Source: Pseudanabaena sp. Chao 1811
Lineage (GTDB): Bacteria; Cyanobacteriota; Cyanobacteriia; Pseudanabaenales; Pseudanabaenaceae
Length of the DNA stretch: 64,000 bases
Reading direction: 5' to 3'
NCBI RefSeq assembly: GCF_027942295.1
Contig: NZ_CP101416.1
Coordinates: 1,116,001-1,180,000, forward strand
Below the pieces are notes generated by a model. That model had not been told where the DNA came from and searched no databases. It saw only the letters and a list, made by a program, of their open reading frames with translations. Position 1 is the first letter of the stretch. The number at the start of each line of letters is the position of its first letter. Of this stretch, positions 28,368-47,438 are shown one piece after another. The position numbers were made by a program, and so were the translations under genes.

Positions 28368-29951
28368 ATGGATTCTAAGTCGTTAAACAATAAATCTTTG
28401 AATGCAAAGTCATTACTGTTAAGTATTCTCAGCTTATTATCTGTTTTCTTTATTTTCCTCACGTTACAAGCAAGTTGGAACAATCCACAGGAACAGACAA
28501 AATTAGATTTATTGCAAACAGATTTAATTTTGCAAGCCACACAGATTACCAATACAGCACAAGAGAATTCAGTCGGGGATCTATTCCAATCCTTAATTAG
28601 CGATGGTAATACGCAGGATATTTATACACAATCCCTCAGAAGTTATCAAGAAGTCCTACAGGCAAATAAATCTGCCCTCGATCGCCTATCTCTAAACATC
28701 AAGGATGAAACGGATAATTCACAGTCTCTATCCAAACAATACCAAAAGAAACTAAACAATATCATTGAAATTAGTGTGCGGACAGGATTGCTACAAGTCC
28801 AAACTGGCGACATTCAAGGAGCGATCGCTACATGGGCAAGTGTCAAAGAATTAGAGGGAGAATCCCTAACTAGCTATGGGTTAACTGCCCAAATTTTGCA
28901 AGGATTATGGTCAGAACCGACAATGTTATTCCCTAACGCTGAAACTCAACTGCGGCATACCCTTAATGGCTGGTATCGTAAAGTTGCTCTTGCTAAAGTA
29001 TATGAAGCTCAACAAAGACAAGAGAAGTTACCTGAACTTGAAAAACAAGCCCAAATAGAAGTTAATGCGGCAATTAACCGCCTAGTTATTATTAATTCTA
29101 TTCCTTTAATTGGTGGTGGTTTCGGTGTTTTAGTTTGGTTGGGGCTACTAGTTCAATGGATTTTCTTTCGCAAATCCTCTCCCTTCTATACCCACCCTCA
29201 AACTGATAATGAACAAACTTCTCATCAAATCACTTGGCAAGTACCTTGGGGAATTGGAACAACTTGGGAAGTAATGGTTTTATGGTTTACTGCCTTTTGT
29301 TTAATGACTCAGTTTGTTCTACCTGTAATCTTTGAGATATTAGGAATTGAATCTAGAGCCAGTGAAGATTTTACCTTGCAGTCTTTACTAGTACTGCTTC
29401 CCTATACGCTCTCAGTTATACCTATGCTCCCAATTTTAAGCACCAGCCTCGCAGACTATCGCCCCTTACCCGAAGGTTGGTTTCGCTTTAAGATTACTTC
29501 GCCGCAATGGATTCTATGGGGGATTGGTGGATATTTTGCCGCGGTTCCGCTAGTCTTAATTGCTTCTGTGATTAGCCAGAAATTCCTCCAAGGTCAAGGT
29601 GGTGGCAATCCTCTATTACCAATCTTGATTGAGAGCCAAAATATTTTGCCTAAGTTCCTACTTTGGACAACTTTGGCGATCGCTGCGCCCTTCTTTGAGG
29701 AATATCTATTTCGAGGATTTCTATTACCTTCACTAACTAAGTTTTTACCCGTTTGGGGTGCGATCGCTTTGAGTGGTTTTTTGTTTGCTTTAGCCCATTT
29801 AAATCTCGCTGATATTATTCCCTTGAGTGTTTTGGGAATTGTGATGGGTTTTGTCTACTGGCGCTCTAAAAATCTACTCTCATCAATGCTATTACATTGC
29901 CTCTGGAATAGTGGTAGTTTCCTTGCCCTAATTGCCCTTGGCGGTAAATAG
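28368..29951 (+). CDS. CPBP family intramembrane metalloprotease
   Basis: 527 aa. The first ~230 residues hold an N-terminal membrane anchor, a soluble helical region (tetratricopeptide-like spacing is possible) and a second anchor. The C-terminal half has about seven hydrophobic helices with the CPBP motifs FFEEYLFRGFLLPSL (EExxxR), FLFALAHLNLADI and MLLHCLWNSGSF (conserved His/Asn). CPBP (Rce1-type) proteases cleave within or near membranes. The target is not known. This long N-terminal architecture is common in cyanobacteria. Confidence 0.9.
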   Translation: MDSKSLNNKSLNAKSLLLSILSLLSVFFIFLTLQASWNNPQEQTKLDLLQTDLILQATQITNTAQENSVGDLFQSLISDGNTQDIYTQSLRSYQEVLQANKSALDRLSLNIKDETDNSQSLSKQYQKKLNNIIEISVRTGLLQVQTGDIQGAIATWASVKELEGESLTSYGLTAQILQGLWSEPTMLFPNAETQLRHTLNGWYRKVALAKVYEAQQRQEKLPELEKQAQIEVNAAINRLVIINSIPLIGGGFGVLVWLGLLVQWIFFRKSSPFYTHPQTDNEQTSHQITWQVPWGIGTTWEVMVLWFTAFCLMTQFVLPVIFEILGIESRASEDFTLQSLLVLLPYTLSVIPMLPILSTSLADYRPLPEGWFRFKITSPQWILWGIGGYFAAVPLVLIASVISQKFLQGQGGGNPLLPILIESQNILPKFLLWTTLAIAAPFFEEYLFRGFLLPSLTKFLPVWGAIALSGFLFALAHLNLADIIPLSVLGIVMGFVYWRSKNLLSSMLLHCLWNSGSFLALIALGGK

Positions 29952-29952
29952 T

Positions 29953-30101
29953 TAACGTCAGTTCGGGTTAAGCTAGCAAATTTTAAAAGCCCAAAAGTAA
30001 AAGCCTTGCTACGCAAGGCTTTTACTTTTGGGCTTTGAGAGAGGGTTTGCGTAGCAACCCTTCTCTCAAAGCCCGTTTCAAATTATCCCGAACTCGCGTT
30101 A
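29953..30101. repeat. MITE-like two-hairpin element (family B), copy 1
   Basis: 149 bp bounded by imperfect terminal inverted repeats (TAACGTCAGTTCGGGTTAA and the complement of TAACGCGAGTTCGGGATAA). Inside are two hairpins, AAAAGCCTTGC-TAC-GCAAGGCTTTT and a GAGAGAGGGTTTGC stem with a GTA tip. The same element lies at 47296-47438 in the opposite orientation. Confidence 0.8.
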
Positions 30102-30127
30102 GTTAGCGGGGATGTTTTGTGTCCTTG

Positions 30128-31126
30128 CTAACTATTATGAAGAACAATCCAAGGATGTTCTACAAAGGCAGAGATACTGCCCTTGAATGGTTCACTTTGC
30201 GAGCGATTGGGTGCATCTAGCAAATGCAATAATCGCTCTACATCCTCAAAATTTATTTGATGGACTAAATAGCGCGACAGAAACTGTCTCACAATTCTTC
30301 TCTGTAGAGCCAAAGGTTGTCGTTGCAAGAGTTGACGATGTAAACGAGGTTTTTGCTCATCCCAAATTACAGAAACATTCTCTTCAAAAAAATTGCTAGC
30401 CTGACTCTCCAGATAGCCCACATCACTATGCAAAAGTTCGGCAGTTTGCGCGATCGCAATTTCTAACTGAGGATTGAAATGCTCTTGTAAGTAAGGAATC
30501 GTCTCTAAACGCAAACGATTGCGGCGATAGTCTAGATTTTGATTGGTGCTATCTTCCCACACAAGAATTTGATTTTCACGGCAAAACTCTGCGGTCTCGT
30601 AGCGGCTGACATTTAACAAAGGTCGTACTAAATTAATTTCAGGTGTCAGCGATCGCTTCCAAGTTAACGCCGCCAGACCATCTGCCCCACTCCCTCGCAT
30701 GAGGTTGTATAGCAGGGTTTCAACGCGATCGCTACGGGTATGCCCTGTGACCACATAGCTACATTGGCGATTCTGTGCCATATCTACGAGCATTGCATAG
30801 CGCCATTCCCTCGCCCCTGCCTCACTTTTTAGCGTTGTTTCCGCAACTCTTACACAAAAATCAATTCCCCATTCCTTGGCAATCATTTCCACATGACTAG
30901 CATTAGCACTAGAGTCACTCCGCCACTGGTGATCACAATGAGCAATTGTGAGATTCCAGTTGAATTTTGCTTGATGCATCGCCAAAAGTTTTGCCAAACA
31001 TAGCGAATCCTGTCCACCAGATACTGCCACTAAAACCCTTGCATCTTTTGGTAGCAGATCAAGCGAGCGTAAAACTATATTTAGCTCAGCGCGCAGTCTC
31101 TTAGTAAAGTGCCTAGCTAATCTCAA
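30128..31126 (-). CDS. tilS: tRNA(Ile)-lysidine synthetase
   Basis: 332 aa. TilS converts C34 of the CAU-anticodon tRNA-Ile to lysidine, so that it reads AUA. The PP-loop motif VAVSGGQDSLCLAKLL sits near residue 33; HCDHQWRSDS, GHTRSDRVETLLYNLMRGSG and RPLLNVSRYE are typical. It begins with TTG at 31126; GGTGGAG 8 bp upstream supports this non-ATG start, and no ATG lies nearby in frame. The length is that of the short TilS form, without the long C-terminal domain. Confidence 0.93.
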   Translation of the reverse strand: MRLARHFTKRLRAELNIVLRSLDLLPKDARVLVAVSGGQDSLCLAKLLAMHQAKFNWNLTIAHCDHQWRSDSSANASHVEMIAKEWGIDFCVRVAETTLKSEAGAREWRYAMLVDMAQNRQCSYVVTGHTRSDRVETLLYNLMRGSGADGLAALTWKRSLTPEINLVRPLLNVSRYETAEFCRENQILVWEDSTNQNLDYRRNRLRLETIPYLQEHFNPQLEIAIAQTAELLHSDVGYLESQASNFFEENVSVIWDEQKPRLHRQLLQRQPLALQRRIVRQFLSRYLVHQINFEDVERLLHLLDAPNRSQSEPFKGSISAFVEHPWIVLHNS

Positions 31127-41133: not shown

Positions 41134-41204
41134 TAATGTGAGTTCGACATAGCCATTTGCAAAGTGCTAAGCACTTTGCAAATGGCTATGTCGAATTAAT
41201 GTTT
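41134..41204. repeat. Palindromic element family C, copy 1
   Basis: TAATGTGAGTTCGACATAGCC, then a long hairpin with arms ending in AAAGTGC-TAA-GCACTTT, then GGCTATGTCGAATTAATG. Its outer end resembles that of the MITE-like family B (TAACGTGAGTTCGG). A degenerate copy is at 50394-50445. Confidence 0.7.
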
Positions 41205-46902: not shown

Positions 46903-46985
46903 AACGCTTATGACAGATAAATTTAACTTTTATTTGTCTTTGTAATTTATTTTTAATATCATTGGCTCTGAAGGAGATTGCCGCT

Positions 46986-47189
46986 ATGCGGAGTTTTAAA
47001 ATCACTGCTTGTGTACCTAGCCAAACTCGCATACGTACACAACGAGAGTTGCAAAATACCTATTTCACGAAGTTAGTTTCCTACGACAACTGGTTCGCTG
47101 AACAGCAACGCATTATGAAAATGGGTGGCAAAATTCTTAAGGTTGAACTAGCTACAGGTAAGCCAAACACAAATACTGGCTTGCTTTAA
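46986..47189 (+). CDS. apcC: Allophycocyanin core linker (7.8 kDa) ApcC
   Basis: 67 aa from ATG 46986; the TTG-started frame to 46962 is not needed. RSFKITACVPSQTRIRTQREL and YDNWFAEQQRIMKMGGKILK are the CpcD-type linker domain that caps allophycocyanin discs in the phycobilisome core. It is last in apcABC; a hairpin with GC-TAA-GC apex follows at 47211-47236. Confidence 0.96.
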   Translation: MRSFKITACVPSQTRIRTQRELQNTYFTKLVSYDNWFAEQQRIMKMGGKILKVELATGKPNTNTGLL

Positions 47190-47295: not shown

Positions 47296-47438
47296 TAACG
47301 TGAGTTCGGGATAATTTGAAACGGTTTGTGAGAGAGGGTTTGCTACGCAAACCCTCTCTCACAAACCAAAAAGCCTTGCTTAGCAAGGCTTTTACTTTTG
47401 GACTGTTAAAATTTGCCAGCTTAACCGAACTGACCTTA
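47296..47438. repeat. MITE-like two-hairpin element (family B), copy 2
   Basis: 143 bp, inverse orientation of 29953-30101: TAACGTGAGTTCGGGATAA, then GAGGGTTTGC-TAC-GCAAACCCTC and AAAGCCTTGC-TTA-GCAAGGCTTT hairpins, then TTAACCGAACTGAC. The two copies share most bases outside the tips. Confidence 0.8.

Follow-up and report, generated by a model that had tools for sequence, protein, structure and literature searches.

A 145 bp MITE family with IS982-type ends and paired hairpins in Pseudanabaena

Results

Location and structure of the element

The window analysed here, a stretch of 64,000 nucleotides from Pseudanabaena sp. Chao 1811, corresponds to positions C1:1116001-1180000 of a genome that consists of a single contig of 4.73 Mb. 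The original prediction placed in this window two copies of a MITE-like element in opposite orientations, at 29953-30101 and 47296-47438, and these coordinates and orientations were confirmed. Copy 1 lies between convergent ORFs, at 28368-29951 (+) and 30128-31126 (-), and copy 2 is situated downstream of a small ORF (46962-47189). The features of both copies are listed below, with the evidence for each in parentheses. G022 is the genome of a relative, apparently Pseudanabaena sp. ABRG5-3, and GGGWTAA-type refers to one of two IS982 subgroups treated in a later section.

29949-29954, + strand: target-site duplication TAGTTA, left (single TAGTTA in the G022 empty site)
29955-30099, + strand: copy 1 of the MITE without its duplications (ACG...CGT; 145 bp; A end on the left) (target-site duplications of 72 complete copies; G022 empty site)
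29955-29973, + strand: A end, ACGTCAGTTCGGGTTAAGC (equals the transposase-downstream end of GGGWTAA-type IS982)
29986-30036, + strand: hairpin 1, 24 bp arms, loop TAC at 30010-30012 (folding, covariation)
30030-30074, + strand: hairpin 2, 21 nt arms, loop GTA at 30051-30053 (folding, covariation)
30083-30099, - strand: B end, ACGCGAGTTCGGGATAA, as read on that strand (like the transposase-upstream end, ACGTGAGTTCGGGATAAG, of GGGWTAA-type IS982)
30100-30105, + strand: target-site duplication TAGTTA, right (flank comparison; G022 empty site)
30106-30140, no strand assigned: leftover of a hairpin, resembling a bidirectional terminator, that belongs to the convergent genes (G022 empty site; flanking convergent ORFs)
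47298-47436, - strand: MITE copy 2, 139 bp, hairpin 1 damaged, common to G022 (sequence comparison)
47323-47367, no strand assigned: copy 2, second hairpin with loop region CTACG (folding)
47369-47393, no strand assigned: copy 2, what is left of hairpin 1 (folding)

The terminal sequences first described, TAACG..AGTTCGGG.TAA, do occur in the DNA. The duplications that flank copies of this family, however, typically begin and end with TA, reading TA(2-4 bases)TA. The outer TA that had been counted is therefore target sequence and lies outside the element, which runs ACG...CGT. In place of the 143-149 bp originally given, the element proper measures 145 bp in copy 1 and 139 bp in copy 2. The latter is a degraded member of the family, shortened by a loss in hairpin 1, and a target-site duplication is no longer recognisable in its flanks. 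Neither copy contains an ORF of 60 aa or more, in keeping with the absence of coding capacity that had been claimed.

Both of the internal hairpins that had been proposed fold far more stably than shuffled sequences, with values in copy 1 of -27.8 kcal/mol (z -10.5) for hairpin 1 and -18.9 kcal/mol (z -7.5) for hairpin 2. The 3′ outer arm of hairpin 1 (30030-30036 in copy 1) is common to hairpin 2. Such very stable hairpins, and a middle arm, GGGCTTT, that can pair with the arm on either side in the manner of an attenuator, are in accord with the second reading offered at the outset, a structured RNA element. Taken more widely, this reading includes RNA regulatory elements such as dispersed terminators or attenuators, with selection on the RNA preserving the stems. 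A comparison with Rfam gave 17 matches, all of them sub-threshold and none over the gathering score.

Copy number and target-site duplications

A BLAST-type search of the genome returned 127-130 first-look candidates, at least 40 of which are full-length and, for the most part, 88-95% identical along the 145 bp. Searches with patterns for the ends, as the original prediction had proposed, located the A end at 86 places and the B end at 60, while the reversed-pattern control gave 0 in each case. When pooled, these amount to 95 distinct places, a copy number that is a lower bound, as copies were located by pattern searches and then fetched as stretches. Both ends are present in 72 complete copies, 42 of which are exactly 145 bp long.

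Exact target-site duplications, likewise proposed as a check, flank 42 of the 72 complete copies (58%), with lengths of 6 bp (n=24), 7 bp (n=13) and 8 bp (n=5). When the left flank of one copy was paired with the right flank of another, an exact match of 6-9 bp was found in 93 of 5112 combinations (1.8%). A recognisable duplication is absent from 16 of the 72. These results bear on the outcome that had been named as refuting the prediction, i.e. no further copies and no polymorphic sites, the pair then being two intrinsic terminators that are similar by chance. Copy 1 and copy 2 do both lie downstream of genes, as terminators would, but the numerous, closely similar full-length copies and their duplications already refute this reading, the probability of which is negligible.

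Among 38 genomes from the taxonomic family, 26 contain this MITE family, and almost all of these belong to one genus. None of the phage records searched carries the element, and no description of this MITE family was found in the literature.

Genomic placement

The complete copies were classified by their neighbouring ORFs: of the 72, 31 are flanked by convergent ORFs, 23 by tandem and 9 by divergent ones, 8 are inside ORFs of at least 90 aa, and 1 was unclassed. A hairpin with arms of at least 11 bp is present no more than 45 bp away from 38% of the insertion points with exact duplications, as opposed to 6% of random windows from the same loci; these windows include coding DNA, so target preference is not cleanly tested by the comparison, and the enrichment may be due to selection against harmful insertions. 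The 31 copies between convergent genes could also be taken to favour a structured RNA such as a terminator, but purging of harmful insertions gives the same placement.

An empty site in a relative

It was also proposed that empty sites be sought in relatives, and a clean one was found for copy 1. In G022 the flanks of this copy are present at 96% identity and adjoin each other as GGCGGTAAATAGTTAGCGGG, where TAGTTA occurs once and the element is missing. Copy 2, by comparison, is present in G022 as well. The absence of copy 1 from that genome suggests that its insertion took place after the two lineages split.

Copy 1 interrupts a hairpin that reads AATAGTTAGCGGG...CCCGCTAACTATT in the empty site. 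The insertion point is in the 5′ arm, and the stem was kept usable through the duplicated TAGTTA. Other species of the genus carry quite different hairpins in the corresponding spacer (window 29949-30140), which marks this spacer as a place of rapid hairpin turnover.

IS982 transposases and the ends of the element

Elements of the IS982 family have ends that begin with AC, and they generate duplications of variable length. The MITE, with ACG...CGT ends and duplications of 6-8 bp, fits this description, and the search for a transposase with the same ends, the last of the checks proposed, led to the IS982 family. The genome itself contains two nearly identical IS982 elements of 1003 bp (L061 and L062), with ends ACGTGAGTTCGACG (hereafter GACG-type) and a transposase of 303 aa that is 96% identical to a protein of P. 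mucicola FACHB-723. The L061 transposase scores 257 bits against NCBIfam NF033520 (cut-off 130) and 242 bits against Pfam PF13612, and the target-site duplication of this element is TGTAGTTA. The ends of L061 and L062 have only ACG..AGTTCG in common with those of the 145 bp MITE. Further PF13612 matches in the genome (L063-L067) were considered as partners and rejected, as their ends do not match. In another genome of the genus (G012), at least 17 near-identical full-length copies of a GACG-type transposase, 96-97% identical to that of L061, look like a recent burst.

A second subgroup, GGGWTAA-type, is intact in relatives. Its assignment to IS982 is based on an identity of approximately 53% to the GACG-type transposase and on grouping in a tree, the profile scores given above being those of L061. 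The ends of this subgroup are ACGTSAGTTCGGGATAAG upstream and ACGTSAGTTCGGGTTAAG downstream of the transposase gene, and the MITE reproduces both, including the left/right asymmetry. The A end matches L255 at 19 of 19 positions and L344 at 18 of 19, and the B end is like the corresponding IS982 end at 16 of 17; clear sharing is confined to approximately 17-19 bp per end. Members were found within the genus (L344/L368, L370 and L386), on a plasmid of P. biceps (L255) and elsewhere (L248 and L249), with ends ACGTSAGTTCGGG(A/T)TAAG as in the MITE; L344, L370 and L386 of Pseudanabaena also have its end asymmetry. These elements resemble the MITE in their range of duplication lengths and differ from it in being approximately 970-1006 bp long, in encoding a transposase of approximately 290-300 aa and in their interior, none of which is held in common. 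When 44 transposases were placed on a tree, end type was found to change five times, close to the minimum of four and far below the mean of 18.7 for shuffled labels, which indicates that end type follows the enzyme.

An intact transposase of the matching end type was not found in the genome from which the window derives. The only trace found of one is a GGGWTAA-type remnant at C1:607288-607353, consisting of 22 residues at 77% identity and an end. At this locus (L102, C1:607148-607377), a MITE copy adjoins the last 22 codons and the right end of the IS982 element.

The ends also bear on a further reading, in which the element would be a REP/BIME-type palindrome moved by a Y1 (REP-associated tyrosine) transposase. 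Like such elements, it consists of dispersed, paired intergenic palindromes. It possesses true terminal inverted repeats and duplications of 6-8 bp, however, whereas single-strand Y1 transposition makes no target-site duplications, and its ends match those of an element with a DDE transposase. This origin is considered extremely improbable.

A second class of MITE was noted in the same genome. It is 111 bp long, with two hairpins and the ends ACGTCAGTTCGACGAAGG and ACGTGAGTTCGATAACG, and is accompanied by single-hairpin minis of 55-67 bp with the same ends (ACGTSAGTTCGA). Examples are located at C1:327361-327475, C1:31797 and C1:1694699-1694755 (loci L068-L097 and L163-L177), and many are flanked by duplications of 6-8 bp. 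In their end sequences, the 111 bp class and the minis correspond to the GACG-type IS982 that is still intact in this genome. A small palindromic element within the window, at 41136-41202, has degenerate IS982-type ends (ATGTGAGTTCGACATAGCC...GGCTATGTCGAATTAATGT) and is probably another mini of this class.

Covariation of hairpin arms and inversion of loops

Among 40 distinct copies of 145 bp, hairpin 1 had 40 double Watson-Crick changes and hairpin 2 had 45, compared with 3.7 and 6.0, respectively, when the arms were shuffled among copies. The terminal repeats of the same copies had 3 double changes versus 75 one-sided ones. In the first four bases of GGGCTTT, the arm that serves both hairpins, both partners pair with the new base at 15 of the 33 changed positions. 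Compensatory doublets are also seen between orthologous copies in G000 and G022 (e.g. L006/L444 and L018/L443).

Two closely related genomes, G014 (one contig) and G013 (a draft of 160 contigs), were compared at 19 orthologous MITE pairs that share both flanks. Across 10,143 aligned positions of the flanks there are 30 differences (0.3%), a count that excludes four flanks with indels or a contig break, and the MITEs have 8 differing sites outside the loops. By contrast, 11 of the 38 loops differ, and 10 of these 11 are exact reverse complements in place: GTA/TAC six times, TTA/TAA twice, and TAG/CTA and TTC/GAA once each. As both TTA/TAA cases resemble single substitutions, 8 inversions are unambiguous. 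Some of the loop differences may be assembly or amplification artefacts, given that G013 is a draft.

Intergenic hairpins in the flanks, outside the MITE, were observed to behave in the same way. Between G014 and G013 (L392-L416 versus L417-L442), five of them have exact loop inversions (TTTAC/GTAAA, ATT/AAT, TTA/TAA, GAA/TTC and AAA/TTT), which shows that loops flip in hairpins other than those of the MITE. In two events, at L402/L427 and in a flank hairpin of L395/L423, a loop inversion coincides with repair of a stem mismatch.

The strong covariation of the stems would, at first sight, favour a structured RNA. Its restriction to the arms, with the equally complementary terminal repeats not co-varying, points instead to template switching or cruciform-mediated inversion of DNA. 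Selection on an RNA does not explain covariation confined to closely spaced arms, nor does it predict the inversion of loops, which are inverted here and not conserved. With the insertion of the element documented by duplications, terminal repeats and an empty site, a structured RNA is a very unlikely account of the family as a whole.

For the hairpins alone, an alternative is that covariation reflects selection for structure and that the loop inversions are artefacts of assembly or amplification. G013 is indeed a draft, and both strand displacement and PCR can form chimeras at hairpins. Against this, both loop orientations are found among copies within the one-contig genome of the pair, and neither the inversions in non-MITE hairpins, the doublets between G000 and G022, the lack of such covariation in the terminal repeats, nor the two events that join inversion with mismatch repair would be expected from it. 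This alternative is thus regarded as improbable, and template switching or cruciform-mediated inversion, as judged from these sequence comparisons, is likely to be the best explanation of the hairpins' behaviour.

Discussion

The element described here is shorter than approximately 300 bp and non-coding, has terminal inverted repeats shared with an IS, is flanked by duplications, and is both multi-copy and polymorphic among relatives, as is typical of MITEs. Each of the checks that had been suggested favoured the reading as a non-autonomous mobile element. Taken together, the data argue strongly, with a probability of roughly 95%, that it is a 145 bp MITE derived from an IS982-family IS with ends ACGTSAGTTCGGG(A/T)TAAG. 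Its hairpins are likely to stay paired via template switching or cruciform resolution.

In the mechanism envisaged, an IS982 transposase would recognise the ends of the MITE and move it in trans. The donor in this lineage would have been a GGGWTAA-type IS982, now represented only by the remnant described above, and the two intact GACG-type copies may or may not cross-mobilise the MITE. Copies would accumulate between genes, most often convergent ones, beside terminator-like hairpins. The arms would remain paired mainly through template switching or cruciform resolution at the DNA level, one arm being copied onto the other and the loop often being inverted.

There is precedent for IS982-derived MITEs in MITECca01 of Cardinium cOegibbosus (PMC9769881), which is similarly short, non-coding, multi-copy and mostly intergenic, has IS982 ends and is thought to be moved by its parental IS982. 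It is longer (approximately 240 bp), occurs in a different host and shares its genome with an intact parental IS. In the genome described here, by contrast, the matching IS982 has been reduced to a remnant. The account of MITECca01 in that source reports neither a two-hairpin interior nor loop flipping, unlike the Pseudanabaena MITE. Nezha, taken here solely from its citation in PMC10969869, is likewise a cyanobacterial MITE.

As a mobile element, then, the MITE represents a new family derived from IS982, ordinary in kind but well documented. It adds a large and cleanly documented example from a common genus of cyanobacteria, one for which a sister class is known and partner transposases can be identified, and it illustrates how such elements can persist in a genome beyond the life of their own transposase. 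Of greater importance than the mobile-element result is the behaviour of the hairpins, and the unexpected part is what appears to be rapid, in-place flipping of the loops.

Template switching at hairpins is expected to leave arm copying or compensatory changes, loop inversion, or both at once (PMC8794818), and all of these footprints were found here. In that study of RNA hairpins, loop inversions were called very rare in rRNA, the loops of which are conserved; in the MITE, they are the commonest change between close relatives. A nearer likeness is found in chloroplast DNA, where short loops between inverted repeats flip in place repeatedly and frequently, even within species (PMC2903610). Those minute inversions affect single sites in plastid spacers, whereas here many copies of one element are affected in a free-living cyanobacterium. 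It is reasonably probable that the intergenic hairpins of Pseudanabaena, for which this MITE family acts as a natural reporter present in many copies, are hypermutable, with loops flipped and arms copied tens of times as often per hairpin as substitutions occur per base.

If this is so, the process behind the minute inversions of chloroplasts would also be at work in cyanobacteria, the group ancestral to plastids, and this process, rather than selection on RNA, would explain the well-paired stems of such elements. Each genome offers approximately 100 similar, mostly intergenic hairpin pairs, many of them orthologous in close relatives, in which the frequencies of arm copying and loop inversion are measurable. 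The MITE hairpins thereby allow mutation-driven and selection-driven upkeep of RNA-like stems to be distinguished.
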